Virus record (IMG/VR): IMGVR_UViG_3300009175_000034
Coordinates: 1-40,906 of that record
Strand: one strand, 5' to 3'
Source: a virus
Length of the DNA: 40,906 nt
The translations under genes and the position numbers were made by a program. A model generated the notes under the pieces. It was not told where the DNA came from, searched no databases, and saw nothing but the letters and a program-made list of their open reading frames with translations. This document shows, in pieces, positions 10,799 through 40,906 of this stretch. Numbering within the stretch: the stretch's first letter is position 1; each line of letters starts with the position of its first letter.

Positions 10799-12427
10799 TT
10801 AATAACATGTATAAGCCTTTATTACCGCTGGTGAAATGCTATTATTCTTCAATGTTACCTGCACTTCACTGAGAAGATAATTAACGCCATTGATTCTGTA
10901 TTTCTGTGAAAAATCAAGATCAATAATTTCCTTAAATGTCATAAATTTAGAAATCGTAACCTTCTTTGTCGATGTCCTGAAATCCGAATACGATTTATAA
11001 AATACATGGAAAAGAGTTTTCTCGTTTTGATGTTCATTAAAAAACAGCGAAATATTGGCTGTTTTGCTCTTACCAAAACATTTAAGAACTCCTCCAACCC
11101 AATCTGTATTCTGAAAAAATATTCTTGGCGTTATTTCTCTCCAGGATACTTTCTTATTCCCACAGACTACCGGACCAGTAGTCGTCCCATTAACATCCAG
11201 AAGAGAGGAAAATGCTAGCTCTACCTTTTCATCCTCAAATTTGTAGTAATATTGGGAAAACAGTTTTTCAGATATACTGTTTTCTACTAACCATCCGGAA
11301 AAATACTGTTTGTATAATTGCCAGTCTTCGATCACATAACGGTATTCTCCCAGGTCGCTATAAGGAAATGGCAACAAGTCCGCGACGGTTGGAACTGCAC
11401 CTTTTAAAGTATCAAGATAACTCGCTTCTTCATCCGAGAATGCCTTTTGCTTCTCATCATCGCCATCCAAGTTCATCTTTAAACTAAGTCCCCTTATCTG
11501 TTCATCAACATCAAGTGAAATTGAAATGATATTTTTTGAGAAATCTATCCCGGAAGGATTTTTAATGATGTCATCAATTGCAATAAGCTTGCATGATTTA
11601 TCTTTCCCGTTAATAAAATACCTGGCATTGAACGCCGTTTCGATTCCCTTCAGGAAATCTTTTATCAGGATCCTGGGAACGTGCAGGCTGAAGTACCAGT
11701 TTCGTAAATCATACGGATATTGATCGAGCAGGTTGTTTGTTGGTGTTGAATTGAAAAGGATCAAATTATCAAAATCACTCCTTTTTGAAAATAACTGGTC
11801 TTTTAATTCAAAACTAAGACTCTCAAAAACCTTGGAATGCACATAATTGAAATACAACATTGGAACTATGATGGACGGATTCAAGTCTTCAGCCGTATGA
11901 TGAATTCCAGTATGATTATTCCAATACTTATTGAATGAAAGTCTCGCGGGGCATGATCCAACAGGATCAAGGTAAACATCATTAAATATTTCAGGGAAAC
12001 AAACTGTCTTGTTTGGATTTACAAGTATGTCATTTATATATTGAATTGCCAAATCATCCGTATCAAATGACATGCTTCCCATATCAACCTGGTTAAGCAT
12101 CAGATCTTTTATCTGGTAATAGAAGTCACCATCAATGCCATAAATTGAACCTTCATAAGACTTGTTGTTTGCGATCTTACATTTTAAAAGACCCTGTATG
12201 TACTGATTATCAACTATTATTTTACAAGGAAACTCTTCATAAAAATCCCTAAATGATTCAACCCTGTTTTTAAAATTCAGAATTCCGGCATTACGAATGC
12301 TGTAGGGTATCTTTATCGGATAACTATAAGATCCTGTTTCATTGAAAATAGGAGACTTAAAGTTAAACGTGATACTGAAATCAGTACCTAAATCAAGTGA
12401 TTGATCATTAACCGTCAATGAAATCAT
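10799..12427 (-). CDS. Tail-tip/baseplate-like structural protein (542 aa)
   Basis: The N-terminus (MISLTVNDQSLDLGTDFSI, then a segment ending in SYPIKIP) resembles a Bacteroidetes phage protein family that follows the tape measure, so I assign it to the tail tip or baseplate hub. The rest is a mix of beta segments and charged loops without known motifs. Its ATG overlaps the tape-measure stop by four bases (12424-12427), so translation is coupled. The next tail gene begins 12 bases further on. The identity as a structural protein is inferred from context and length. Confidence 0.65.
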   Translation of the reverse strand: MISLTVNDQSLDLGTDFSITFNFKSPIFNETGSYSYPIKIPYSIRNAGILNFKNRVESFRDFYEEFPCKIIVDNQYIQGLLKCKIANNKSYEGSIYGIDGDFYYQIKDLMLNQVDMGSMSFDTDDLAIQYINDILVNPNKTVCFPEIFNDVYLDPVGSCPARLSFNKYWNNHTGIHHTAEDLNPSIIVPMLYFNYVHSKVFESLSFELKDQLFSKRSDFDNLILFNSTPTNNLLDQYPYDLRNWYFSLHVPRILIKDFLKGIETAFNARYFINGKDKSCKLIAIDDIIKNPSGIDFSKNIISISLDVDEQIRGLSLKMNLDGDDEKQKAFSDEEASYLDTLKGAVPTVADLLPFPYSDLGEYRYVIEDWQLYKQYFSGWLVENSISEKLFSQYYYKFEDEKVELAFSSLLDVNGTTTGPVVCGNKKVSWREITPRIFFQNTDWVGGVLKCFGKSKTANISLFFNEHQNEKTLFHVFYKSYSDFRTSTKKVTISKFMTFKEIIDLDFSQKYRINGVNYLLSEVQVTLKNNSISPAVIKAYTCY

Positions 12428-15400
12428 CGTGTAGTATCTTTTATTGTCTGATCAACTTTACCATTTTCTTTCTGTAATACATCATAGGATATTGATGCAT
12501 TAAGGCCATTTCTGGCATGTGTGTTGAATTCATCCAATGCCTCCTTAAACCCGGCAGGAAATATAATTATCGGTGGTGGTGCCTGGGTTGATGATGGAAT
12601 CCCAAAGTCCGGGTACTGACCAGCAGCCCGCTGGGGAACCCTGGCATATTGAATAGCCTGGAGCACCTTGGGATAATTCATCACCAGGTTCTTTGTCGTA
12701 TAAGGATCTATCACAATCTCATTCCCCGTCTCATTAACCAGCATTGGCTTGCCCGGAATCCCGGTGAATGATTTTTGATAAGGAACATCTTTGTATAGTT
12801 TGCCATCGTTTTCACCAACCACATCCTGGGTTGATTTCGCGCTCTGCCTGGCAACATCTGTTTTCGACTGAGACATTACCTGGTTAATTACATCGTACCT
12901 GCCCATTGCAGCTTCAGGAACCTTTGATGACAGAATGTAACCTACTTGTATAGCTCCTAATGCAGCTGTTATGATGCTCATTACTATACCACCGGGACCC
13001 GGAGGATTTGCCAGGGCGCCGGCAACTGCCGTTGCCACATTGATCATTGCATTAAATAAGGCAATTTCCCGGTTTCTTTCAGCCTGGTCATGTTCGAGCT
13101 TCCGCTTCTTTTTATCCAGGTCAAGATCTAGTTTTGCAACTTCAGCATCGTATTTTTTCTGATCAATTTGCTTTCCGTCAAGTTGTTTCTTAAGATTTGC
13201 CTTCTTCTTATTATTTGAAGCCTCATCCTCAGCAACCTTATCTTCTTCCGCTTTGGATTGCATTGAATAGATCTGACTTAATCCTTCAACACCAGTTTTT
13301 GCAAGGTCTATTGCCTTTTGAATTACTTTTTTAGTTGCCTCATTTGCAAGCTGTGCCTCTCTGTCAGCTTGCTCCTGAGCCATCTGAGATTTTATCTCAT
13401 TAACCTTTGACTGATCATTGACATTTTCGTCAAGAATTTTCTTGTATTTTTCATTGAGCTCGAGCTGGATCTTCTCCTTACCATCGGCCAGGTCCTTTTC
13501 TCCTTTAAGTTTCAGGTTATTTAGATCATCATTAAATCTAACATTACCTGTATTGACAGCCTTATCCGTTTCATCCTTGCGAGCAGTATTTAGTTTTGAA
13601 ATCGGATCCTGAATCTTGGCAAGTTCTTCTTTCTTGCGATTCTCTGCAGCAACTATCTTGTCTACATTGCCATTTGCTTCTTTAACCTCTTGATCATACC
13701 TGAATTGTATAGTATCAAGTATTTCCTTCTGTGCATCATCATACTTCTTATTGATCTCATAATCCTCCCTACCTGTAATACTCATTCTTGCAACACGAAG
13801 GTTTTCGTGAATTTCTGCAACCTTTTTTGCAAAATCAGCTTCAGCCTGTTCAAGTACTTGCTTGGTCTGTTTATCGCGCTCAATCTCAAGAGTTCCGATA
13901 TTATTATCAACGGTTGAGTTCTCCTGCTGGATCTCTTTCTTTCTCGCCGGTGCAAGATTGGGATCCTTAAGAAGCTTTTCATTATCTGCCTTAAATTTTA
14001 ATGCCGCCTTAATGAGTGTATCATATTTATCCTCTACATTTTTTACCTCCTGTTGGGTTTCGTTTAGTTTATTAGCAAAGTTCTTTCCATCCATATCAGT
14101 GATGGAATCCATTAATTTTTTATAGTCTTCTTGTATCTTTTTAAAGGATTTTTGCTGTTCTGTTTCTTCCTTTTTCCTTCCCGAACGTGTTTCCATGGCA
14201 TTCTTTGCCTCTATCTTGTGAGCAGTAGTTTCATCCTTTAAAGTTTGTGCCTGGTATTCATTCTGGGCTAAATAGGTATCCTTTATTCCGGTTGAAATTG
14301 TTTTGAATAAATCTTCCTTTCCTTTTGCAAAAGAAGTAATTAATCTACCAGTTGCTTGAATTATTGGAGGGGTTTTACTGATTTCCGTATTCACTTCTTT
14401 TAGTCTCTCAGGATTATAAAATGGATTTGCTTGATAACCTCCAGTTCCACCTGCAGACGATACTTGGCCTTGTTTTGAAAGGAATATTTTTTCCTCCAAT
14501 AATTTGTTGAACTCCTTTGCCTGATCAATCTCTTTGGCATTATCATTGTAATTCTTTACAAAACTGATAATTTGTGCATCTGATAACCCTGTCTGCAATC
14601 TGGCACCTTCGAGATCAATATTTAATTTGGATTGTTTTAGATCTATATTTTCCTTTAATCCGATGTTTTGTAACACCATAATATCGCGTTCCTTTTGAAG
14701 TCTTTCAGCATCTGATAAAGTCTGGTTGCGCAAATCCTTTCTTAATTTGATGATTTCGGTCTGCCTGGCAATTTGTTGAAGTGAATGGGATTCTTCTTTT
14801 CTTCCATACTCCTCCATGAACTCAGCATATTTCTCTCCATATTTAACTGCTTCTTTAATATTTGTTAAAAAATTAGACCAGTCTCCATTTGCAATTGTTC
14901 TTAAAAAAGCCTGATATCCAGAATCAATTCCAGCCATTAAAATATGAAATTTCTCTGCGGATCCATGAGTAGAATCAATGGCATTTTTTATTTGTCCGAA
15001 AGCTTTTTCTGCCAGGTTGGCAAGAGTCATTCCGCCGGCAACTCCCAAAATTTTTTCCATCAGTCCACCACCGGCTCCAGCATCTTTACTGATATTTTGG
15101 CTTTTAAACTTTACTTCATCAATCCTGGCCCCTACTGCCTGAAGTTCCTTTTCGATTTGTTTATATGCCGGTGATCCGGGGGAGGATCTGGCAAATTCAT
15201 TCATCAAACTTTGCTGAAGCGATTTCAGATCCTTAATAGATAAAGATGTCAGACCGGCTTCTTTTTTTAAACTTACCAGGCTGGCGTTAGCCTGATCAAG
15301 ATCTGCCTTCGCCGCCTTCCATGGACCGGAATCTTTATTTTGTCCGCTTTTTTGCAGGTCATTCAAAACTTCCTGGTACTTTTTAACCTGGCCCTCCATT

Positions 15401-15480
15401 TCAATAACAGCCTGCTTAGCCTGGTCATTGTTTATGAATATGGAAAAGCGGTAATCCGATACGTTTGTCTTTGATGCCAT
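12424..15480 (-). CDS. Tail tape measure protein (1018 aa)
   Basis: This is the longest late gene product. It has long charged heptad-rich helices from about residue 270 to 800, rich in Lys, Glu, Gln and Asn. A glycine-rich hydrophobic segment lies near residues 136-165. A second hydrophobic Ala/Gly/Val segment at about 805-865 (INVATAVAGALANP) is typical of the membrane-active region of tape measures. The protein spans the tail tube, sets tail length and takes part in DNA delivery. At the usual 1.5 angstrom per residue it would imply a tail of about 150 nm, which supports a siphovirus-like virion. The start codon lies two bases after the stop of the upstream tail gene. Confidence 0.85.
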   Translation of the reverse strand: MASKTNVSDYRFSIFINNDQAKQAVIEMEGQVKKYQEVLNDLQKSGQNKDSGPWKAAKADLDQANASLVSLKKEAGLTSLSIKDLKSLQQSLMNEFARSSPGSPAYKQIEKELQAVGARIDEVKFKSQNISKDAGAGGGLMEKILGVAGGMTLANLAEKAFGQIKNAIDSTHGSAEKFHILMAGIDSGYQAFLRTIANGDWSNFLTNIKEAVKYGEKYAEFMEEYGRKEESHSLQQIARQTEIIKLRKDLRNQTLSDAERLQKERDIMVLQNIGLKENIDLKQSKLNIDLEGARLQTGLSDAQIISFVKNYNDNAKEIDQAKEFNKLLEEKIFLSKQGQVSSAGGTGGYQANPFYNPERLKEVNTEISKTPPIIQATGRLITSFAKGKEDLFKTISTGIKDTYLAQNEYQAQTLKDETTAHKIEAKNAMETRSGRKKEETEQQKSFKKIQEDYKKLMDSITDMDGKNFANKLNETQQEVKNVEDKYDTLIKAALKFKADNEKLLKDPNLAPARKKEIQQENSTVDNNIGTLEIERDKQTKQVLEQAEADFAKKVAEIHENLRVARMSITGREDYEINKKYDDAQKEILDTIQFRYDQEVKEANGNVDKIVAAENRKKEELAKIQDPISKLNTARKDETDKAVNTGNVRFNDDLNNLKLKGEKDLADGKEKIQLELNEKYKKILDENVNDQSKVNEIKSQMAQEQADREAQLANEATKKVIQKAIDLAKTGVEGLSQIYSMQSKAEEDKVAEDEASNNKKKANLKKQLDGKQIDQKKYDAEVAKLDLDLDKKKRKLEHDQAERNREIALFNAMINVATAVAGALANPPGPGGIVMSIITAALGAIQVGYILSSKVPEAAMGRYDVINQVMSQSKTDVARQSAKSTQDVVGENDGKLYKDVPYQKSFTGIPGKPMLVNETGNEIVIDPYTTKNLVMNYPKVLQAIQYARVPQRAAGQYPDFGIPSSTQAPPPIIIFPAGFKEALDEFNTHARNGLNASISYDVLQKENGKVDQTIKDTTR

Positions 15481-15482
15481 TG

Positions 15483-16010
15483 CTATTTGATAAAGATTCG
15501 TCCTGTCCTTACAATTGCTGTTTCATAGTATGCATGCACGATCTGCTCAAGCTCAGGGATGAATGATTCAACCACCGGGTTAAACCAGGGCTTTGGATGC
15601 CGGTTAAATCCTTCCGTCTTCGAGATCTTAACCACAGTGTCGCCTTTCATCACATATCCCCGGCCAACTCCTTTATGGATGAAGATTCCTTCGCGCCGGA
15701 AGGAGAATCCCAGCCGGTAGATCTCCCCCGATTGTTCCTTAGATGTTCCCTTAATGGAACTGGCCAGCCTCGATCCGCCAATCCCCGATCCGGATATAGA
15801 TGGACCCAAGGCAGCCTTCACTTTTTCGAGCCATCCCAAAAGCTTGCCATTAAATTCATCCACCGTTGCAATCTCCATTATCCGGGCTTGCTGCAAGGAA
15901 TCTTTGGATATGTTAATATCGAAAGGCCCTTCCCATGTTTTGGAGAAGGCTTCGCTGCGGTTCTTGCCACCATCAGCCATCTGCTGAGATAAACGATTGA
16001 ATGCGCCCAT
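15483..16010 (-). CDS. Tail completion / head-tail joining-like protein
   Basis: A 175-residue protein upstream of the tape measure. The motif region IYRLGFSFRREGIFIHKGVG (about residues 99-118) and the end PWFNPVVESFIPELEQIV look like the Bacteroidetes relatives of HK97 gp10-like or minor tail proteins, which have basic surface strands followed by a C-terminal helix. The assignment is by pattern and context only. Its ATG shares one base with the stop of the preceding small gene (TAATG at 16008-16012), so the two are coupled. Confidence 0.6.
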   Translation of the reverse strand: MGAFNRLSQQMADGGKNRSEAFSKTWEGPFDINISKDSLQQARIMEIATVDEFNGKLLGWLEKVKAALGPSISGSGIGGSRLASSIKGTSKEQSGEIYRLGFSFRREGIFIHKGVGRGYVMKGDTVVKISKTEGFNRHPKPWFNPVVESFIPELEQIVHAYYETAIVRTGRIFIK

Positions 16011-16192: not shown

Positions 16193-16236
16193 GGAGCAAA
16201 GGAAATAGGATCGGATAGGAGATTAAAGGACAAGAA

Positions 16237-16501
16237 AAAAGCCATTTATGGCTTTTAAATAACCCATATCTGGGTTTTTAAATAATCCGATTTCGGACTA
16301 TTTATATCATATAAAGGATGATTATCCTGTATTTTTTGTCCCGGTTTATCAAATAAAACGCTAAAAAGCGTTTTAAATAATCGGAATTCCGATTATTTAA
16401 ATTCGGATAAAGGGAGAATTCTCCCTTTATAATAAAAAAACCCGCCTGGTACAAGCGGGTTTTCCAACTGTAAAACATGAGAACCCCTCATTACTGAGGG
16501 G
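16237..16501. repeat. Tandem array of nine hairpins between the Bro-N cassette and the tail genes
   Basis: Nine inverted repeats follow one another in 265 bases. Paired arms are 16237-16245/16248-16256, 16261-16266/16271-16276, 16280-16290/16293-16303 (one mismatch), 16311-16319/16324-16332 (imperfect) and 16355-16362/16367-16374. Next are perfect palindromes at 16372-16401 (30 bases, centre GGAATTCC) and 16407-16430 (24 bases, centre GAGAATTCTC). Last come 16437-16445/16455-16463 and 16484-16490/16495-16501. Stem sequences differ, but several units are separated by the same word TTTAAATAA. Arms often begin with A-runs and end with T-runs, so each can act as an intrinsic terminator on either strand. 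It lies at the end of the Bro-N gene and before the tail genes. Confidence 0.85.
16437..16463 (-). terminator. Intrinsic terminator-like hairpin (eighth unit of the array)
   Basis: AAAACCCGC at 16437-16445 pairs with GCGGGTTTT at 16455-16463 around a nine-base loop. Seven A bases at 16434-16440 precede the GC stem on the plus strand, so the minus-strand transcript has a U-run after it. Together with the C/G hairpin at 16484-16501 it is the conventional terminator for the Bro-N gene ending at 16509. Confidence 0.75.
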
Positions 16502-16508
16502 CACTCAT

Positions 16509-17042
16509 TTAATTACCTTCGGGTGATCCAAGATCAAGTCTCAGTTGATTGGGATTTCTTTTGATCACCTCTCTCAATTCAATGTGCTTTTTATCCATTT
16601 CCAAAGTCAAGGTCTTAATCTTTGACTTCAAATCAGTTATGGAGTTTTCAAGAACTTCGATCTCAGAAGTAATTCTTTGAAGTTCAAGCTCTTTTGTCTG
16701 CGCTTCTTCGGAGGTATAAAGTCCAGCTTTTCTTATGGAAGGTAAAACTTCATGAGTTACCCACCTTTTGAATGCCTTAGCTTCTGGTTTCTTGGATGTT
16801 AAGATTAGAGAATATAAACCAAACTCATTTACAGTCCAGGTCTCTTTTTGCTGACCTTGACCGACTCCAAGTCGGTCAAGCTTCCGCTCATCCTCATCCA
16901 ATTTCTTAACAGCGGCATATGAATCTGCATATCCAAGGATATCGCAAACATCAATACCAGCAAACCAAACCTGTTCATCATTGTCCACTTTTGTACGGAT
17001 GGGACGGTCCTCATAATTAAATTTTGTAATTTCTGTTCTCAT
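16509..17042 (-). CDS. Bro-N domain protein (antirepressor-like)
   Basis: Residues 1-110 are a Bro-N domain: VDNDEQVWFAGIDVCDILGY, then DSYAAVKKLDEDERK, then WTVNEFGLYSLILTSKKPEA and FKRWVTHEVLPSIRKAGLY. The C-terminal part (about 112-165) is a coiled coil in place of a KilA-C or ANT domain. Proteins of this type act as phage antirepressors or DNA-binding regulators. It has its own promoter (17068-17097) and is followed at once by the nine-hairpin array, so it is an independently transcribed unit placed inside the tail operon rather than beside the repressor. Confidence 0.85.
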   Translation of the reverse strand: MRTEITKFNYEDRPIRTKVDNDEQVWFAGIDVCDILGYADSYAAVKKLDEDERKLDRLGVGQGQQKETWTVNEFGLYSLILTSKKPEAKAFKRWVTHEVLPSIRKAGLYTSEEAQTKELELQRITSEIEVLENSITDLKSKIKTLTLEMDKKHIELREVIKRNPNQLRLDLGSPEGN

Positions 17043-17067: not shown

Positions 17068-17097
17068 CAAATGTAAACAAAACTTTCCAAAGTCAAA
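17068..17097 (-). promoter_or_regulatory. Bacteroidetes-type promoter for the Bro-N gene
   Basis: On the minus strand TACATTTG (complement of 17068-17075) matches the -7 consensus TAnnTTTG, and TTTG (complement of 17094-17097) matches the -33 box with an 18-base spacer. It points toward the ATG at 17042, leaving a leader of about 20 bases. The -33 box lies just before the stop of the upstream small gene at 17101. Confidence 0.65.
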
Positions 17098-17480: not shown

Positions 17481-17726
17481 TTAGGATTCTTCCTGAGAAA
17501 TGAATAATGCCTCAAGCAGGCTATAGAATGAACTTTGAAGTTCAAAGAATTCACTCTCTACTCCTGCCTTGTAAGGATCATTCGCCGCGATAGCAAAAGT
17601 CTGCTTTGCAAGAAAATCCTTGATGCCGATACCGAATCTCTTCAGGTCCTCCAGCGATTCAATAATTTGTGGGGTGATTGGCTGCCCGTCAATTACAATA
17701 CTCGGGCTGTTGGTTTGTTTGTTCAT
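17481..17726 (-). CDS. Small hypothetical acidic protein (81 aa)
   Basis: An 81-residue protein with a beta start (SIVIDGQPITPQIIESLEDL) and amphipathic helices to the end (FFELQSSFYSLLEALFI). It is not recognised. It is the first gene after the promoter at 17863-17893, and the structured leader at 17745-17815 ends 19 bases upstream of its ATG. It and the next two small genes form a compact operon. Confidence 0.62.
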   Translation of the reverse strand: MNKQTNSPSIVIDGQPITPQIIESLEDLKRFGIGIKDFLAKQTFAIAANDPYKAGVESEFFELQSSFYSLLEALFISQEES

Positions 17727-17744
17727 TGGTACCTCCTAAAGAGA

Positions 17745-17815
17745 AAGCCCTCTGTGCTGTCCCGGTCACTAAAACCGTGTGTGTCGCATTACTGCGACAC
17801 ACGCACAGAGGGCTT
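17745..17815 (-). ncRNA. Predicted three-way-junction RNA (structured leader or small RNA)
   Basis: Three helices can form at once. A 13-bp outer stem pairs 17745-17757 with 17803-17815 (AAGCCCTCTGTGC with its complement). A short hairpin pairs CGGT 17763-17766 with ACCG 17774-17777. A perfect 10-bp hairpin pairs 17779-17788 (GTGTGTCGCA) with 17793-17802 around the loop TTAC. The three helices are almost directly adjacent, forming a three-way junction. It lies downstream of the promoter at 17863 and 19 bases upstream of the ATG at 17726, so it is a 5' leader. It has no U-run, so it is not a simple terminator. Small-molecule sensing or RNA-binding-protein control is possible but not shown. Confidence 0.6.
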
Positions 17816-17862
17816 CCCCTATATAGAAGATGAATGTTCAATTGATTAGTGTTAGGACACTA

Positions 17863-17893
17863 CAAATATACATCTTCTAGCGAAAATGTCAAT
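17863..17893 (-). promoter_or_regulatory. Bacteroidetes-type promoter for the three-gene small cassette
   Basis: On the minus strand TATATTTG (complement of 17863-17870) is an exact TAnnTTTG element. ATTG (complement of 17890-17893) lies 19 bases upstream, the preferred spacing to a -33 TTTG-type box. Transcription would start near 17856 and run through the structured leader. A 9-bp inverted repeat (TAGAAGATG near 17825 and CATCTTCTA near 17871-17879) brackets the start site and may be an operator. Confidence 0.65.
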
Positions 17894-17909
17894 ACCAATT
17901 AATTATCCT

Positions 17910-18548
17910 TTATTTTATCAATTCTTGTAAAATCTCATCAAATCCATCAGCGTTATCAATGGCAAATTTGTAAGATGATGTACTATATTCAGAAAGTTCA
18001 ATTATTGAGAATTCAACTCTACCTCCTTTTGATAATATATCACATAATTTCTTTGAATCTTTTTTATTTAGGATAAGTCTATCAGAATCATTTTTTGCAT
18101 TAAGAACAATTATCTCAGAATCTTTTGATTTAACCTTAATCCTATATCCATATTCAATTGATGATTTTACTGGATTTTTACCGGCATATTCAAACAGCAT
18201 TATTGCTACTGATTCCGGATTATCAATTAAGAACCTAACTTTCAAATCCGCATTTTCAGTTGCACTATTACTGAAAAAGCCAAAAATATCAGGTGAAGTT
18301 GTAATATGCTTTTCCTTTGTAGGATCCCCGAAATCATCTACATAAAATTTGGTTATCCAAATTCCTTTTTGTGATATAGCACCAGATTTTTGTGGGCTAT
18401 ACATAGCCATTGCTAAAGAATCTGCTACTCGAAGGGAATCAGTAATCCTTTTTACCTCCAAATCCTTTGCAGAAGGAGAATTTAAGGAAGTGCAACTTGA
18501 AATAGTTACCTGGATAAAGACAAAAAAGTAAAGTAAAATCTTTTTCAT
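17910..18548 (-). CDS. Phage-encoded lipoprotein (212 aa)
   Basis: A type II signal peptide is clear: a lysine start, a hydrophobic stretch LLYFFVFIQVTI, and a lipobox ISSC with Cys19. The mature part is unassigned, with an internal segment about GIWITKFYVDDFGDPTKEKH. The gene is distinctly AT-rich and lies between hicBA and the small cassette, so it looks like a lysogenic-conversion gene whose product sits in the bacterial envelope. A terminator-like hairpin at 18592-18606 separates it from hicA, implying its own transcription start. No clear TAnnTTTG promoter was found in the short space. Confidence 0.75.
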   Translation of the reverse strand: MKKILLYFFVFIQVTISSCTSLNSPSAKDLEVKRITDSLRVADSLAMAMYSPQKSGAISQKGIWITKFYVDDFGDPTKEKHITTSPDIFGFFSNSATENADLKVRFLIDNPESVAIMLFEYAGKNPVKSSIEYGYRIKVKSKDSEIIVLNAKNDSDRLILNKKDSKKLCDILSKGGRVEFSIIELSEYSTSSYKFAIDNADGFDEILQELIK

Positions 18549-23069: not shown

Positions 23070-23561
23070 TTAAGAATTGATATTAGAGTTTTTGATGCCT
23101 TCAGTTTTCATTGTAAACACAAATGACCTCCCGTTGCAATCCATATACTGGTACTCCGTATCTATATGGATTTTATCCGGGTTCAGCCGCCGCATCATAA
23201 GAGTATTGCTGTCCTGGCTGTCAAAATCTTCTGCCATTCGCAGCATTTGGGTTATCACATCTTCACAGATCTCCTGGGTACTGTCAACATCATTGATCCA
23301 GTCATTATCATCCTGATCGCGCTCACTCGATTTTTTCAGGATGAACACATAGCAACTTTCCGAAATCTTGATATTGTCAAGGTTGAATGCTTCAGTATCA
23401 ACAGATGGCAGAACTGCTACGAGTATGACTTCACCATTTTCAACATCCTTGATGAATTTCTGAACCTGAACTTCATCCGATACAACCTTCACCCGGTCGA
23501 TCGACGGCACCAGCAGGTTCATGTTCTCCCAAAACTCCTTATATGTTTTTGCCCTTACCAT
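23070..23561 (-). CDS. Hypothetical virion-assembly protein (163 aa)
   Basis: The product mixes beta segments (GEVILVAVLPSV, CYVFILKK) with a strongly acidic centre (SSERDQDDNDWINDVDS). It begins inside the end of the preceding gene (23-base overlap), so it is coupled. Position between the portal-side genes and the lysis genes suggests a head-tail joining or neck role. No family is recognised. Confidence 0.6.
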   Translation of the reverse strand: MVRAKTYKEFWENMNLLVPSIDRVKVVSDEVQVQKFIKDVENGEVILVAVLPSVDTEAFNLDNIKISESCYVFILKKSSERDQDDNDWINDVDSTQEICEDVITQMLRMAEDFDSQDSNTLMMRRLNPDKIHIDTEYQYMDCNGRSFVFTMKTEGIKNSNINS

Positions 23562-24456
23562 AACTTTCCATCTTTTTCATATTTTGCATGACCTGGTACA
23601 AGCGCGCCATCACATCCCACAGATTCTGGTTATCGGTTTCTTCAATTGAACCGAATACTTTTGTCTCTGCCAACGAGTAAAGCAGTCCCACCAGGCCGAT
23701 TCCTTCAGTATCTTCACTTTCTTCGCTCTTTTCGTAAAGGATTGAAAGTTTGATCCTGTTTTCCCCGATCATCGGCTCACCGGTGGCCAGGTAATCCTCG
23801 CAACCGGTCATAAACAGGTAAATCGAATAACGGATGACCAGCGGGAGCTGCGCAATCTTTTTTACCCGCTGATGGAGCAGATTCGGGTTACTATTACCCG
23901 TGAACGGAATCCTTTCTTCTCCATTAAAGCGCCTGAACTGTTTTCTGAGCCACAAAAACCGCTTCTTTGGGCGGTAAAGTACCGCAATCATGTAATTAAG
24001 ATGCTCTTCATCCCCCTTGATCATGTATTTTCTCATGTAATCATGGGCCATTCTGTACTCCCGGAAGGTGACATCCTGAAGAGCATCAGCGGGACCATAG
24101 TATTTTTTACAGATACAAGGGATGAAATTGTGCACAGAATTGAGCTGGATCACATTTACCGGCTTGCCGTCGCGCTGTTCAACCTTGAAATATGAGTTCA
24201 ATACCTGGGAAATGACATAGATATTTTGCCAGATCTCGTCTTTTATCTCCTGATCAAAGAGATAAAACTTCGGATTCATGTTTATTTCAAGGAGTTTGTA
24301 GGCCAGTAGCATCTTGAGCTTGTCAATTGATAGTTCTCCTTCAAGGTGACGAAGAACAAGACCAATGAAGAATAAATACTGTTCCTCATTCATCTCATCT
24401 ATTGTTGAAGGAATTTCCTTCACGATGCCACTTTCCGGTATATCAATTTTGTGCAT
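23539..24456 (-). CDS. Hypothetical phage protein (305 aa)
   Basis: A mainly helical protein with long charged helices and a basic loop (YRPKKRFLWLRKQFRRFNGE near residues 160-180). Residues 1-80 resemble a small folded domain (MNEEQYLFFIGLVLRHLEGE), and the C-terminus is Lys-rich. Not recognised. The start shares one base with the stop of the upstream gene (TAATG at 24454-24458), and the stop overlaps the next start, so the gene is tightly coupled. Neck or tail-assembly function is possible by position only. Confidence 0.6.
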   Translation of the reverse strand: MHKIDIPESGIVKEIPSTIDEMNEEQYLFFIGLVLRHLEGELSIDKLKMLLAYKLLEINMNPKFYLFDQEIKDEIWQNIYVISQVLNSYFKVEQRDGKPVNVIQLNSVHNFIPCICKKYYGPADALQDVTFREYRMAHDYMRKYMIKGDEEHLNYMIAVLYRPKKRFLWLRKQFRRFNGEERIPFTGNSNPNLLHQRVKKIAQLPLVIRYSIYLFMTGCEDYLATGEPMIGENRIKLSILYEKSEESEDTEGIGLVGLLYSLAETKVFGSIEETDNQNLWDVMARLYQVMQNMKKMESYGKGKNI

Positions 24457-27226: not shown

Positions 27227-27747
27227 TATGGAACAGCAATGGCAGTCAGCACACCGGTGGGTGAGACTCGCAGTCGGTATTTAACTCCAGATCGGTTTTT
27301 CAATACTATACCCTGGATTGTATCAGATATCAATAGTCGTTTAAGGGAAGCGCTGTCAGCGGATAGTTTACCTGAGGAAGAAGTAACGTTTATGGTTCCC
27401 AGGTTAACTGATGTAAAATATCCGTATCTGAACAGGTGTGTCGGATCTCCCAGGTCATAAGTAGATATCATTGGAAGAAATTTAGTTCCGTACCAGTTAA
27501 GGATCCTTAAGCCGGTGGAAGTTTCCATGAACCCGTAAATGGCTTGGTTGGGATAACCTGTAAACTGGAATACCGGCTCTCCGGATGTACTTTTAATGGC
27601 CAGGTGTGCACTTCCGGATTGAGCCCCCAGGACTACCTTGTCCGTAAATGTTTTTTGAAATGTTGTCCCGTCGCTGTTAAGGAACTGGGCAGATGCAAGT
27701 GAGGTTATCATCAATAAGATGATTGATAGGATCAATACTTTTTTCAT
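27226..27747 (-). CDS. Secreted or virion-surface protein with signal peptide (173 aa)
   Basis: A classical Sec signal peptide occupies residues 1-20 (basic start, hydrophobic core SIILLMITSLA, small residues before the cut). The mature protein has repeated Ser/Thr/Gly and beta segments (HLAIKSTSGEPVFQFTG, SVNLGTINVTSSSGKL) like phage fibre or host-surface proteins, and no lipobox. A phage virion protein usually lacks a signal peptide, so this may be a lysogenic conversion product or a protein exported before lysis. The next gene starts at its stop. Confidence 0.55.
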   Translation of the reverse strand: MKKVLILSIILLMITSLASAQFLNSDGTTFQKTFTDKVVLGAQSGSAHLAIKSTSGEPVFQFTGYPNQAIYGFMETSTGLRILNWYGTKFLPMISTYDLGDPTHLFRYGYFTSVNLGTINVTSSSGKLSADSASLKRLLISDTIQGIVLKNRSGVKYRLRVSPTGVLTAIAVP

Positions 27748-27773
27748 AGATCTTGGTTTTTATGATTTATGAG

Positions 27774-27803
27774 CAAATATGCTTTTTCGAATATTTTTTT
27801 TAA
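27774..27803 (-). promoter_or_regulatory. Weak promoter candidate for the secreted-protein operon
   Basis: On the minus strand CATATTTG (complement of 27774-27781) differs from TAnnTTTG at one position, with a TTTA-like box about 19 bases upstream. It lies between the RadC terminator and the ATG at 27747, where a new transcription start is expected. The match is imperfect. Confidence 0.3.
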
Positions 27804-27831
27804 AGGACATATCTATAGAATTTACGACCAT

Positions 27832-27862
27832 AAAAAAAGGAGTCCCGGACTTCCGGGACTCC
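27832..27862 (-). terminator. Strong intrinsic terminator after radC-like gene
   Basis: GGAGTCCCGGA at 27839-27849 pairs perfectly with TCCGGGACTCC at 27852-27862 around a two-base centre. On the minus strand it is followed by seven U, from the A-run at 27832-27838. It lies four bases after the RadC-like stop. Confidence 0.85.
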
Positions 27863-27866
27863 CAAG

Positions 27867-28325
27867 CTATAGTTTGCCTTCATCAGCAAATGAATAGTAA
27901 TTGTCATCAGGTGTAACAATCAGATGATCAAGGATGGTAATATCAAGGAAAATGCCTGCTGACTTACATTTCTGAGTTATTTTTTCATCAGCATCACTTG
28001 GAAGCTTGTTTCCTGAAGGATGATTGTGCGCAAGGATCATTGAACTGGCATTGGCTTTCAAAGCTGTTTGAAAAACAAGTTTAGGATCTACAACAGTTCC
28101 ACTAATTCCTCCCTGGGAGATCAGTTTATAACCAAGAACTTTATTGGCTTTATTCAATAGTAAGATGTAGAATTCTTCTACATGTTCCAATTGATCACTC
28201 CAGATATCTCTTAAGATATCGAAGGCATCAGATGACTTTGTTATTTTTCTCATGTCGGCTGGTCGAACCTGATTGTGATAAATGATCTGAATTTCAGCAA
28301 CTGAAGAGTTGAACAAGTTTTTCAT
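27867..28325 (-). CDS. RadC-like JAB/MPN-domain protein (short form)
   Basis: The 152-residue protein consists only of the JAB domain. Glu51, the pair His100 and His102 in AHNHPSGNKLPS, and Asp111 reproduce the JAMM metal-binding set. The helix-hairpin-helix N-terminus of chromosomal RadC is missing, as in the short RadC relatives on plasmids and phages. The biochemical role of this group is not settled; peptidase, nuclease or anti-defence roles have been suggested for JAB proteins. It is preceded by a small gene (28337-28510) and followed by a strong terminator. Confidence 0.9.
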   Translation of the reverse strand: MKNLFNSSVAEIQIIYHNQVRPADMRKITKSSDAFDILRDIWSDQLEHVEEFYILLLNKANKVLGYKLISQGGISGTVVDPKLVFQTALKANASSMILAHNHPSGNKLPSDADEKITQKCKSAGIFLDITILDHLIVTPDDNYYSFADEGKL

Positions 28326-28336
28326 AGAGCAGATTA

Positions 28337-28510
28337 TTAAAGGTTAGAGATTGAAAATTGTGAACTGAACAGATCAAATTCCCAGTAAAATTTATCCGGA
28401 TCCTGGATAAATAATTCTTCAGTGTATCCAGGGTAGAAGATCTGATCCATTTCCTGGGTGAAGATTTCAATGATTGATTGCGGTTGATAAGCAATTTCAT
28501 GTGCGTTCAT
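28337..28510 (-). CDS. Small protein upstream of the radC-like gene (57 aa)
   Basis: ATG at 28508-28510 opens a 57-codon frame ending in TAA at 28337-28339, twelve bases before the RadC-like ATG at 28325. The product starts MNAHEIAYQPQSIIEIFTQE and ends FYWEFDLFSSQFSISNL, a composition unlike random translation. A partner role for the RadC-like protein is plausible from the consistent spacing and strand. Confidence 0.55.
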   Translation of the reverse strand: MNAHEIAYQPQSIIEIFTQEMDQIFYPGYTEELFIQDPDKFYWEFDLFSSQFSISNL

Positions 28511-29069
28511 AAGGCGTTTGTTTTAAGGTTAGAAAAGAAATTTTTAACGCCAACGGCAGCCACCGAGAATAATAAATTATGTCAAGGGTATAGGTCACGA
28601 ATCGAAGAGTCTGAATATACTGAAAGCGACAGGATCCATAAGGAGGTCGCCCTTTACAGTTTTAAGCTCATCCAGTACTGGATTTCTGAGAGCGAATTAT
28701 TCGTAAGGTACCTTTGTCTGAAAATTTCGAGCTAAACCGTGCGGTGGGTATCGGTATTCTTTTTTGCTTCTTTTTTCTTTGACGTGCTAAAGAAAAAAGA
28801 AGCTGATTTTTCAACTTTCATTCTCAATGCTGCAACATCAAAGCAAAAAATTAAGATAAAAAATCGAAAAGGTCAAAAAATCACCTTTTTAACCTTCCTT
28901 GTCTTCAATCTTTTTATTAAAATCTTGGATCCCTAGCCGACCTGCCCGGAGTTTGGGGCGCACGTGCACTCTTTGGCTGTGGGCGGATATATGATTAAAA
29001 TCCCACAATACACTCGTGGTTCCGAATTTCGGAATCACACCAATTTGCACTCAATGAATAGATACGGGA
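28511..29069. other. Non-coding region between the terminase and the radC-like pair
   Basis: About 560 bases without a gene I can support; short plus-strand frames here are Lys/Phe-rich and low in complexity. It contains a perfect 15-bp inverted repeat, GCTTCTTTTTTCTTT at 28766-28780 with its complement at 28789-28803, capable of terminating transcription on either strand. A smaller palindrome TTCCGAA-T-TTCGGAA lies at 29020-29034. The base composition shifts from AT-rich to GC-rich around 28930-29010. It follows the large terminase, where cos or pac sequences can lie, but no such site is recognisable. Confidence 0.5.
28766..28803. terminator. 15-bp inverted repeat, likely bidirectional terminator
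   Basis: GCTTCTTTTTTCTTT (28766-28780) is exactly complementary to 28789-28803 with an eight-base loop. T-rich and A-rich flanks on the two sides allow termination in both directions. It would end the terminase transcript on the minus strand. Confidence 0.5.
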
Positions 29070-30758
29070 TTACCTTATGTTTACATCAGAAGATACAGAG
29101 TTCTGTCTTTGCTTGGCTATGGCAATCCACTTAGGTCGACAGATAAGATACTTTAAGGCATCAGTGAAGTTTGTACTTTCCATTGCTAATCTTTTAGATG
29201 GCAAGTGATCACCCTTCTTGATCTTGATGATCTGTCCCTTTGCATTCTTACCCAATGGACATATCTCAAGTTGACTTTTGAGTTCTTTACATTCATACTT
29301 ATCAATTAACAGATTTGGCAGGCGTTTATCCTTCTCACCCATCATTACATTCATCAAGAGATATTCATCATAATGAAGGATGTTACCCTGTCCCACATTC
29401 ATCAGTTGCACAAGCCACCCGGTACGTTTGCCCTGGGCATCGATCTCGATATCATGTTTGATCAGTGATGCCATGTCTCGTCCCATCTTGGCATACTGAT
29501 TCGTTGATCGATCATGGTACAGGTAAAGGATCTTTCGCTTATGTGGTTCAAAGAAGGTTATGAACTTATTGGCCAGTTCACGTATAGACTCAGGGGTGAT
29601 GGTATACATACCTTTCAATACCCGATAGTTCCTGCCTTGTTCCTGTCCTATCACCAGGCTAAACATATTGCCTGCATCCAGGCCACCCTCCAAAGGTTTA
29701 TCAGGAATGATGTACTTTAACCCAGAAGATACCTGTGTAATGTTGTCGCTCAATCCGAACTGATCATAATACTCATGGTTATACCCATCATCATAGAAGT
29801 GTTTATCTGATAGGTTCCCATAGAACCGGGCAGACTTCTCCAGGGTCTTGCGGATGGATAATACAGATGTCTTGAACTCTTCAAACGTGAGAGTAGCCAG
29901 TAGGTTCTCAAAATACTTCAGCGTTAAGATATCGGCATTGGCAAAGGAAGATACGATATAGAAGAAGGTGCTGTTCTGGCGTATCATCCCAAGGCGTTCC
30001 ATCCAGCGTTTCTGTTTGCGTTTGATAAGCTCGATCTTAACGGGATCTGCCTGTTCTTTTTCTGCATAGAAAAGCTCCCAATTGATCTCATTCAAAACAA
30101 TCGCCGTTTGGATGATCTTAATAATCTGCTGCTTATCCATGTTCTTTTCCATGCGTAGCATCCAGTCATCTTCTTTGATGGATGGATCTGCCATGTCTGA
30201 GCAAAATGTCTGCCCCATGAAATAATGTGATTTTCCATACAACATATAGTCTCCACGTAGGGTAGGAAACAATTTGCGAAGCTTTGATTCGAGCAAGTAT
30301 TTTGCTTCATCCCCAAAATGGTGGACTACCGATATCCCTGCTGCAGTACTGGGCCTATCGAGGGATATAAGAAAGAACTTGCAGCCATTGAACGTTGAAA
30401 TGGTATGTTTGTATGAAAACGTCTTAATATATGAGGTTTTCCAATGTGGTAACGGCGGTTTATCGACTACATAATGAACATTCTCAAAGAAATTCTGTCG
30501 TGTTTCCCACCCGTGAATTATAGCGGGCACGATATTGGTTAAGAGATTGACGTATGTATCCGCAACAAATGCAAAACTGGCTCGTGGCATGTCGTAAATG
30601 ACATCGATTGTCCGTTTTGCAAGAATTTCAGTGCTTTTTGATACACCACGACCGCCATACAAATAAAGATTTGTCGGCTTGATAATATCAATGAGCGTAG
30701 CTATCCAGTTGGAATAGCGTATATCAGCTTCCTGCTTGGTTATCTTCCTTTGACTCAT
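29070..30758 (-). CDS. terL: Terminase large subunit
   Basis: I chose ATG 30758 (MSQRKITKQEADIRYS) over the earlier in-frame ATG, which would add 14 hydrophobic residues. From it the 562-residue protein shows a Walker A-type loop YGGRGVSKST near residue 35-43 and a Walker B-like HHFGDEAKY near 147-152. The nuclease half begins near residue 360 with GGLDAGNMFS, an RNase H-like metal-site motif, and has YHDRST near 420. It packages DNA into the prohead with the portal. Its start overlaps the end of the small subunit by 35 bases. Confidence 0.88.
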   Translation of the reverse strand: MSQRKITKQEADIRYSNWIATLIDIIKPTNLYLYGGRGVSKSTEILAKRTIDVIYDMPRASFAFVADTYVNLLTNIVPAIIHGWETRQNFFENVHYVVDKPPLPHWKTSYIKTFSYKHTISTFNGCKFFLISLDRPSTAAGISVVHHFGDEAKYLLESKLRKLFPTLRGDYMLYGKSHYFMGQTFCSDMADPSIKEDDWMLRMEKNMDKQQIIKIIQTAIVLNEINWELFYAEKEQADPVKIELIKRKQKRWMERLGMIRQNSTFFYIVSSFANADILTLKYFENLLATLTFEEFKTSVLSIRKTLEKSARFYGNLSDKHFYDDGYNHEYYDQFGLSDNITQVSSGLKYIIPDKPLEGGLDAGNMFSLVIGQEQGRNYRVLKGMYTITPESIRELANKFITFFEPHKRKILYLYHDRSTNQYAKMGRDMASLIKHDIEIDAQGKRTGWLVQLMNVGQGNILHYDEYLLMNVMMGEKDKRLPNLLIDKYECKELKSQLEICPLGKNAKGQIIKIKKGDHLPSKRLAMESTNFTDALKYLICRPKWIAIAKQRQNSVSSDVNIR

Positions 30759-31632
30759 CTTCAAAAAGTATAAAAGGTATATCTTCAGTCCTGGCATCAC
30801 GATTTATCCTGGATCTATCCACAACTGTAATGTCCATTTGATCCAGTAATCTTCCAAGTTCATTACGGTTGATTTCCGGGGCACCGGCATCTCTCATTTT
30901 CATTGTATAGAGAACCGGCCTTCGGTCAAGAAGGTCTTCAGGTACCTGGTTTGCCATATCTTTTCCTACGCCACGCATTTCAGCGGCATCCTTGAAACAC
31001 CTGCGGGCCGTTTCAAAATCATTCATCTGCTGGGCGATCAGGGCCATGTTATCCAACCGGTCGGCATAAATATTACTCCATGCCTGGACCTTGATTTCAT
31101 TATCCAGGTTAAAGAAATTCAGACTTTCACAATAAAGCTTGTTTGCCTTGTATTTACTGATATTGGGCCATTTAAGGCTGATAGCGGAGACGATATAACT
31201 TTTGGAATTGAATTTGTTGAACAAACAGCGTATGTAGTCGATCTGTTCAAAATACTCGACTACCGGTGCCGGCAGATCATTGGTTTCGCCGCGTTCAACC
31301 ATTGCCTGAAGCTGGCCATATTGAGTCTTTTCAGAATCAAACTGAATTTTGAGTTTGTAATTCTCCAGTCTTTCAGCTAAGGAATCCTTCTTCCATTGCT
31401 GGATTGAGGTTAAGTTTCCACTTTTAGCCTGGTTAAGGTTTTGCTTATCTATTTCTGCCTGCACCATCAATTGGCCACGATCATAATGGTGTCTTATCTT
31501 GGATCCCGGAGTATTGAACTCTTGCTCAAAATCTACCAGGTCCACGTCCAGGTACATGGCAATTTTTTCTACAGAATAATTGATACCGGCTAGTTCTTCG
31601 ATATCCTTGTATTGTTCATCTGTTAAGTCCAT
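30724..31632 (-). CDS. Terminase small subunit-like protein
   Basis: From the internal ATG at 31632 (MDLTDEQYKDIEELAGINYS), which lies inside the end of the PLD-like gene, the product has about 302 residues. An HTH-like segment at 10-45 (SVEKIAMYLDVDLVDFEQEF) and a helical body precede a conserved-looking block (YIRCLFNKFNSKSYIVSAIS) in the middle. This length and the direct overlap with terL fit a Bacteroidetes phage small terminase that recognises the packaging site. An upstream ATG at 31755 is within the PLD frame and less likely. Direct homology to a named family is not certain. Confidence 0.65.
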   Translation of the reverse strand: MDLTDEQYKDIEELAGINYSVEKIAMYLDVDLVDFEQEFNTPGSKIRHHYDRGQLMVQAEIDKQNLNQAKSGNLTSIQQWKKDSLAERLENYKLKIQFDSEKTQYGQLQAMVERGETNDLPAPVVEYFEQIDYIRCLFNKFNSKSYIVSAISLKWPNISKYKANKLYCESLNFFNLDNEIKVQAWSNIYADRLDNMALIAQQMNDFETARRCFKDAAEMRGVGKDMANQVPEDLLDRRPVLYTMKMRDAGAPEINRNELGRLLDQMDITVVDRSRINRDARTEDIPFILFEDESKEDNQAGS

Positions 31633-39860: not shown

Positions 39861-39967
39861 AACAGCGGTATACTTTTCAACCTGATTTTTATGAAAAGCA
39901 ATCAGCTGTTGTATTTGATCACAGATTCCCTGGTCGGATACATACAGCGTATCAGCTCCGGGATCAT

Positions 39968-40375
39968 CTACATCTGTAACTCCTTGAATACCTCGGTAAA
40001 ATTCTCAGCAAAGAATTTCGACCATTCTGGTGTAGGAAAGCTAAGGCGAGAACCGGCACTCGAAACCGAATACTCGAAGTGGCAAAACGAATAGTCGAAC
40101 CGGAAAAAGGGAGCCACGATAAAATATGGCCACCATTTGTATTGATTAGTGTCATGACCATCGGCCGTTTTTTCTTCATAGCGCCAGGCAGCATTGGACA
40201 TGAGTAGTACCTGGTTATGTGCTGTCCGGTACGGTGTGGTGTATCCATTCATTGCCTGGTCATAATCCTTGCAGGCTACTTCATCAGCCAGTTTATACAC
40301 GTCCTCAATGGTTTTGATCGTTGAAAAATCAAAAGCTTTTTTCTTTGAATTTTTTTCTTTCGCTGCTTTTTTCAT
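39968..40375 (-). CDS. Tandem-family phage protein, copy 1 (135 aa)
   Basis: Complete member of the three-copy family. After a basic Lys-rich start (MKKAAKEKNSKKK) comes TIKTIEDVYKLADEVACKDY, then DQAMNGYTTPYRTAHN, KWWPYFIVAPFFRF, and SAGSRLSFP before a helical end (FFAENFTEVFKELQM). Copy 2 aligns along its whole length, copy 3 in the second half. A 28-base block is nearly identical between copies (40038-40065 here), so duplication is recent or gene conversion is ongoing. Function is unknown. Confidence 0.78.
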   Translation of the reverse strand: MKKAAKEKNSKKKAFDFSTIKTIEDVYKLADEVACKDYDQAMNGYTTPYRTAHNQVLLMSNAAWRYEEKTADGHDTNQYKWWPYFIVAPFFRFDYSFCHFEYSVSSAGSRLSFPTPEWSKFFAENFTEVFKELQM

Positions 40376-40386
40376 GCTCTTAAGTT

Positions 40387-40797
40387 TTAGAATTGTAAAT
40401 CTTTGAAAATTTCCATCAGGAACTTTTCCCCGAAGAAATCTGACATCGCTTCTAAAGGGAAGCTAAGGCGAGAACCGGCACCCGAAAGCGAATACACGAA
40501 GTGGTAATACGAATAGTAGAACCGGAAAACGGGAGCCATAACAAAGAACGGCCACCACTTTTTCTGATTGGTGTTATTACCATCAGGTTTTTCACCAACT
40601 AGTGCCCATGCAACACTTGATAGCATTCTTGCCTTGTTGTATGATACACGGTCCGGAGTCGTATACCCTGCCATGGCCTGATCGTAATCCTTACGAGTTT
40701 CTTCATCAGCCAATTCATACACTCGTTCAATGGTTTCGATTGTTTTAAAATCTACCACTGGATCTGTTCCTTGATTTTGTGTTGTTTGATTTTCCAT
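40387..40797 (-). CDS. Tandem-family phage protein, copy 2 (136 aa)
   Basis: Complete member of the same family (TIETIERVYELADEETRKDY, then DQAMAGYTTPDR, KWWPFFVMAPVFRFYY, GAGSRLSFP, FFGEKFLMEIFKDLQF). Eleven bases separate it from copy 1. It is the copy that best matches the two window-edge fragments, which it bridges exactly with a 31-base gap (40488-40518). The conserved C-terminal half and variable N-terminal start suggest that one end carries a shared function and the other target specificity. That is inference. Confidence 0.78.
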   Translation of the reverse strand: MENQTTQNQGTDPVVDFKTIETIERVYELADEETRKDYDQAMAGYTTPDRVSYNKARMLSSVAWALVGEKPDGNNTNQKKWWPFFVMAPVFRFYYSYYHFVYSLSGAGSRLSFPLEAMSDFFGEKFLMEIFKDLQF

Positions 40798-40808
40798 GAT
40801 TTTTGACT

Positions 40809-40906
40809 TTAGTTTTGTAAATCTTTGTAAATATCTATCAGCAGCTTTCCGAAGAAATCTGACATCTCTTCTAAGGGAAAGCTAAGGCGAGAACCGGCAC
40901 CCGAAA
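40809..40906 (-). CDS. Tandem-family phage protein, copy 3, C-terminal part (cut by window end)
   Basis: TAA at 40809-40811 ends a frame that is open to the window edge: GAGSRLSFPLEEMSDFFGKL, then LIDIYKDLQN. The last base of the window is the last base of the 28-base block shared with copies 1 and 2 (40879-40906 here). Its reading frame joins to the fragment at 1-348 if a 31-base link of the copy-2 type is present. The product is then about 158 residues with a longer, different N-terminus. Confidence 0.75.
   Translation of the reverse strand, partial: SGAGSRLSFPLEEMSDFFGKLLIDIYKDLQN

Follow-up and report, generated by a model that had tools for sequence, protein, structure and literature searches.

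The window analysed here, a virus record of 40,906 nt, comes from a phage of Bacteroidales bacteria. At 16237-16508 it carries an array of nine short head-to-tail hairpins (272 bases) that are present on both strands. The array begins after the stop codon of a Bro-N domain gene, and about 40 bases beyond its last hairpin a small ORF starts, followed by a tail-module gene and the tape measure gene (Table 1). The first-pass annotation had placed it correctly, between Bro-N and the tail genes.

Genes recognised in the phage encode an integrase, an HTH repressor, a LuxR-type regulator, a primase, a head protease, the tape measure protein and an endolysin, and 29070-30800 was assigned as the terminase homologue by its match to an annotated phage. 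Relatives include Bacteroides phage BT-TP2, Cellulophaga phage Ingeline and Flavobacterium and Porphyromonas phages, and closer relative contigs share 72% terminase identity. The best explanation is that the array resides in a temperate Bacteroidota siphophage. Beside the terminase region, 27867-28325 encodes a RadC-like JAB domain protein (Pfam 1.1e-39) that is kept in relatives G001, G002, G005 and G006.

A search with the Bro-N protein led to a contig (L322) in a MAG of an uncultured Bacteroidales bacterium. The MAG contig is 99.95% identical to the window over 8.5 kb, and its array is 100% identical. Aligned whole, the 29.3-kb MAG contig G033:C64 showed 7 mismatches in 27.7 kb, ran on past window position 1 and re-entered at position 40906 after 31 intervening bases. 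Since it joins both window ends, the record represents a nearly complete phage genome of ~40.9 kb whose map is circular or circularly permuted. An assembly artefact, which the first pass had listed as something that would undo the array, is unlikely because a separately assembled contig has the identical array and closes the phage circle; the two assemblies could still, with low probability, have reads in common. Elsewhere on the map, genes 39968-40375 and 40387-40797 (region 39964-40797) are diverged tandem copies, their DNA ~75% identical; the pair corresponds to 27637-28561 of G033:C64, and G001 and G002 also have two adjacent matches.

We compared the slot that holds the array with the same slot in relatives, bounded by 23070-23561 (or 23539-24456) on one side and 15483-16010 (or the tape measure gene) on the other. 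G004, G005 and G006 keep the flanking tail genes in collinear, close-packed order, and their slot of 1.7-2.2 kb, compared with 7 kb here, is filled with packed ORFs, among which neither an array nor a match to Bro-N was found. The slot of G002 (5.6 kb) holds other accessory-looking ORFs with single terminator-like hairpins. Relative to G004-G006, the region from 16.0 to 23 kb is accessory and contains several promoter and terminator units, and this comparison makes the array the closing element of an accessory (moron) block within a late operon. The first pass had held that absence from close relatives would speak against the array. It is absent from the three relatives whose slot was read and a DNA search of 32 related phage records found no homologue, but the same relatives also lack the whole cassette, so this absence says nothing about function.

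The arrangement resembles the morons of lambdoid phages, which have their own promoter and terminator: Bro-N is an extra gene in a block missing from relatives, between genes that are collinear in them, and it has sequence matches to a promoter upstream and a terminator region downstream. Both promoter assignments are matches to the general Bacteroidota consensus. The locus differs from lambdoid morons in that its terminator region is a 272-base stack and several accessory genes stand side by side. Farther upstream, between the second promoter (17892) and the ATG at 17726, the minus strand carries a very stable, interrupted leader hairpin with an inner 10-bp hairpin (17735-17835, GAAGCCCTCTGTGC...GCACAGAGGGCTTTC; fold of 17690-17910, -85 kcal/mol, z -8.7), possibly an attenuator or a small RNA. 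A perfect 11-bp hairpin, CTTGACCGACTCCAAGTCGGTCAAG, lies within the Bro-N coding sequence at 16856-16880.

Table 1. Features of the array and its surroundings, in the order of minus-strand transcription
Feature	Position	Strand	Remarks
Second Bacteroidota-type promoter, TTG-N19-TATATTTG	17863-17892	-	Upstream of gene 17481-17726; consensus match only
Bacteroidota-type promoter, TTG-N18-TACATTTG	17068-17096	-	Directly upstream of Bro-N; consensus match only
Bro-N domain gene	16509-17042	-	Pfam 2.6e-26; antirepressor-like accessory gene upstream of array
Hairpin A	16477-16508	-	Starts at first base after Bro-N stop codon; GNRA-type loop GUAA
Hairpin B	16437-16463	-	Classical terminator; minus-strand tail of 7 T
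Hairpin C	16407-16430		Perfect palindrome, 24 bases, GAATTC centre
Hairpin D	16372-16401		Perfect palindrome, 30 bases, GAATTC centre; 27/32 identical to G
Hairpin E	16354-16375		Four bases in common with D
Hairpin F	16315-16328		Weakest of the nine, -3.1 kcal/mol
Hairpin G	16279-16304	-	Likely duplicate of D; G-U on minus strand, C-A mismatch on plus
Hairpin H	16261-16276		
Hairpin I	16237-16256	-	Terminator-like, 6-T tail; last before tail genes
Tail-module gene	15483-16010	-	Downstream of array; conserved in G004, G005
Tape measure protein gene	12424-15480	-	Next in tail module

Nine hairpins and their U-rich tails

All nine hairpins of the first-pass annotation were recovered on both strands, and the two palindromes with GAATTC centres are exact. 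Its start of the array stood, but its end (16501) did not, as the last hairpin reaches 7 bases further; likewise the hairpins are head to tail as described, except that the fifth and sixth overlap by four bases. Read on the minus strand from Bro-N towards the tail genes, the cores are GAGTGCCCCTCAGTAATGAGGGGTTCTC, CCCGCTTGTACCAGGCGGG, GGGAGAATTCTCCC, CGGAATTCCG, CGCTTTTTAGCG, GGATAATCATCC, GTCCGAAATCGG, CCCAGATATGGG and GCCATAAATGGC. With pairs limited to 46 bases, the minimum free energy structure consists of exactly nine hairpins on either strand (-106 kcal/mol on the minus, -91 on the plus), and on the plus strand eight of the nine have -6 kcal/mol or lower, the exception being F. Each of three stems contains a mismatch that reads as C-A in RNA from the plus strand but as a G-U pair in RNA from the minus strand. 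This pattern favours the minus strand, on which the genes are read, although three of three would arise by chance in 1 case in 8.

In 18 of 18 hairpin-strand combinations (nine of nine hairpins on both strands) the TransTermHP-style tail score was -2.8 or lower, against a baseline in which 23-29% of random positions have -2.5 or better. On the minus strand B, I and E have strong U tracts; the tracts of D, G and H are interrupted. A number of cores are short, with 3-5 GC pairs, and A residues break up part of the U tracts (TTATTT). Neighbouring hairpins have a common tail, the AT-rich spacer TTTTAAATAA / TTATTTAAAA, which provides TTTT for one hairpin on one strand and TTATTT for its neighbour on the other. 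The recurring spacer of the first pass does recur, but not purely as a spacer: TTTAAATAA belongs in part to an extended stem and is found at 16254, 16277 and 16372, and in inverted orientation at 16393.

Judged by sequence, the array is probably a composite bidirectional intrinsic (Rho-independent) terminator that closes the Bro-N moron. Its hairpins have a stem with a GC-containing base and a 3' U-rich tract and are positioned at a gene's 3' end, and they share with known intrinsic terminators, including bidirectional ones, the small loop and the tails on both strands. This class of terminator is right for the host group, since Bacteroides has been annotated with intrinsic terminators by TransTermHP and read-coverage drops (PMC10994844). 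Of the roles guessed at in the first pass, a stack of terminators insulating the tail genes is best supported, on the basis of its position, the U-rich tails of all nine hairpins, the Bro-N promoter and the lack of the block in relatives; a structured RNA and DNA-level roles are still its rivals.

Intrinsic terminators usually come singly or in pairs, whereas here nine stand in a row, several with short GC cores, with A-interrupted U tracts and with spacers common to neighbours. Single hairpins may terminate poorly, given the short cores, the interrupted U tracts and the weakness of F. Stacking is also found in the tandem terminators of engineered expression vectors, and stacked terminators add up in efficiency. 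The array differs from those in being natural, with nine units, mostly different stems and compact shared tails. Our search of the phage literature for terminators or hairpins in tandem, in multiples or in arrays found nothing comparable. Nine hairpins are hard to justify by termination alone, because B and I look sufficient.

Fold strength and rarity

The first pass had suggested folding the region in both orientations against shuffled controls. For 16225-16515 the plus strand had a minimum free energy of -104.2 kcal/mol (z -10.52) and the minus strand one of -116.4 kcal/mol (z -11.66), and none of 200 dinucleotide shuffles was as low on either strand. With DNA parameters the z-score was -9.76. 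Because shuffles can flatter intergenic DNA, we added a comparison with natural DNA of similar GC content, in which the exact 291-nt array had z -8.1 (minus) and -6.2 (plus) and none of 6000 windows was as low. We also scanned ~4.4 Mb of phage and bacterial DNA on a fixed grid (18,738 windows with GC of at most 46%, one strand). The top rank went to the best-aligned array tile, in the identical MAG copy (z -8.43); other tiles of the two array copies had -5.9, -5.1 and -4.2 (-5.9 and -4.2 being those of the phage record itself), and the best unrelated window -4.62. In the top unrelated windows that we read there were ordinary terminators or long stems, one or a few per window, and no array. The region that follows the terminase gene in the closest relatives also folds strongly (L008:11721-12091, z -4.6; L104:4901 onwards, z -4.2), with several long stems, unlike the array.

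Counts of perfect stems fail to separate the array from GC-rich coding DNA; GC-matched energies and tail-based counts do. Under a fixed rule for bidirectional units (a perfect GC-bounded core with a U-rich tail on both strands), the array has 4 units per 290 bases, compared with 0.023 in the carrier MAG and 0.038 at other loci. The maximum per 290 bases was 1 in the MAG (294 kb) and 2 in 4.0 Mb of other loci.

Across 43 genomes of the MAG's family and annotated phages we found no significant match besides the phage itself; the lone partial match covered 38 bases in one genome (E 2e-4). The collections searched contained no diverged copy, and the sole second copy, in the MAG, is identical; the selection to keep the array that the first pass took as implied is therefore at most a possibility, and no pattern of conservation speaks for a function. 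At least 80 viral-contig loci contain TTTTAAATAA-N8-20-TTTTAAATAA, and among those listed none has an array and three have one or two hairpins set between such spacers. Two unrelated phage contigs (L138, 3300006920_001337; L150, 3300025645_000810) carry two tandem TTTTAAATAACACGATTCCGTG units, each a hairpin in the same TTTTAAATAA frame, and L127 has one copy fewer. The array is not a general feature of Bro-N loci, being absent from ~160 Bro-N matches with 4 kb flanks, nor of the tail slot, where we saw it only in this phage.

The hairpins could themselves be the product. We consider it rather unlikely that the minus strand encodes a structured non-coding RNA or 3' UTR element in which the hairpins are what functions, whether as a 3'-UTR-derived sRNA, an mRNA stabiliser or an antitermination RNA. 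Such an RNA would fit the better folding of the minus strand with all three mismatches turned into G-U, the small loops throughout and a closing helix, GGACAAG/CTTGTCC, that could enclose four hairpins. It fits poorly with loop sequences that the hairpins do not have in common and with U-rich tails on both strands at every hairpin, which a structural RNA does not need, and relatives yielded no second, diverged copy whose covariation could speak for it. No Rfam family reached its gathering threshold in the window, and the matches below threshold are of the sort that any hairpin with U after it would give. Neither a tRNA nor a tmRNA was detected.

Origin of the hairpins and the copy of hairpin D

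That the stems differ and did not arise by duplication, as first proposed, is borne out for most pairs (3-20 of 32 positions identical) but not for G and D. The differences between these two include one compensatory change from C-G to G-C, one G-U/A-U change and a loop base.

The resemblance of G and D to a duplicated pair would suit neutral accretion, in which terminators persisted as small cassettes came and went repeatedly, without a joint function, helped by local duplication and by template switching that perfects palindromes. Template switching can indeed perfect palindromes by mutation, and the accessory region, with its several promoter and terminator units, offers material for such a history. 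We judge this quite unlikely all the same: the spacers are a few bases long with no gene remnants, nothing similar was found in ~4 Mb of phage and bacterial DNA, related and unrelated, including the surroundings of ~160 other Bro-N matches, and without selection palindromes rich in AT tend to disappear.

Hairpin D has an exact counterpart elsewhere. Its 31-nt sequence, TTTAAATAATCGGAATTCCGATTATTTAAAT, occurs in frame in an open KilA-N gene of another Bacteroidota-like phage contig (L454:1744-1774, IMGVR_UViG_3300038313_000452). Judging roughly by how many perfect palindromes such a collection may contain, an exact match of this kind would arise by chance with a probability well under 1 in 100, but it is a single case. 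The copy is not insertion-like, since the KilA-N protein has no extra residues compared with its Polaribacter phage Leef_1 homologue. In 395 Bacteroidia genomes we found one exact match to hairpin D (the phage itself) and three with two mismatches; near copies are at chance level, and one lies in normal coding DNA, as YNRNSDD of a predicted glycosyltransferase. Phages and plasmids contained no close full-length copy. REP/BIME and Rickettsia palindromic elements likewise consist of short palindromes, and the sequence within a KilA-N gene recalls them. The array differs from them in that its stems are not alike, it has no genomic family of copies and the KilA-N copy is no insertion; without dispersed copies of hairpin D, a mobile palindromic element of the REP or RPE type is not supported.

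The same match bears on a role at the level of DNA, with the palindromes as binding sites or cruciforms, for instance as operators for regulators that the phage itself encodes or as a site where morons are exchanged by recombination. We regard this as unlikely. Besides the sequence shared with KilA-N, it would account for the two perfect palindromes and the centre-to-centre spacing of ~22-40 bases. Against it, no single sequence-specific protein would bind all nine sites because the stem sequences differ, the KilA-N copy is not an insertion, near copies are at chance level with one of them in ordinary coding sequence, as set out above, and no such site was found at other moron borders.

Transcription through the array

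In our preferred reading, a composite bidirectional terminator, RNA polymerase that initiates at the Bro-N promoter would read the gene on the minus strand and encounter a run of nine hairpins, weak to strong, each with a short GC-containing core, a small loop and then a U-rich tract. Many imperfect stops would sum to a tight one, and in the lysogen read-through from Bro-N would thereby be kept from turning on the tail genes. Because both adjacent hairpins would draw a U tract from the shared spacer TTTTAAATAA / TTATTTAAAA, the stack would halt antisense transcripts as well. To express the tail genes late, polymerase would have to cross the array by antitermination or start anew downstream of it; if there were no antitermination, terminators oriented like the late operon would keep the phage from transcribing its own tail genes. 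Among the window genes scanned we recognised no antitermination protein, and between the array and the next ORF we found no promoter of the same Bacteroidota consensus. We infer the termination and its size, the insulation of the tail genes and the late antitermination or restart.

A more specialised role seems improbable to us: a dedicated regulatory device of a novel sort, made of graded, shared-tail bidirectional terminators that gate the tail genes, or else a phage RNA of a new structured type built in this way. In the gating version, only an antiterminated late polymerase would cross the nine-terminator barrier, and its passage would decide tail-gene production.

If the array does not terminate transcription, there is still a phage element, RNA or DNA, whose very strong structure calls for an explanation. 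If it does, it is an extreme natural terminator array at a moron, and how late transcription in a Bacteroidota phage crosses nine terminators, on which we found little in the literature, becomes a testable question. The array would then also provide compact bidirectional insulator parts for Bacteroides genetics.
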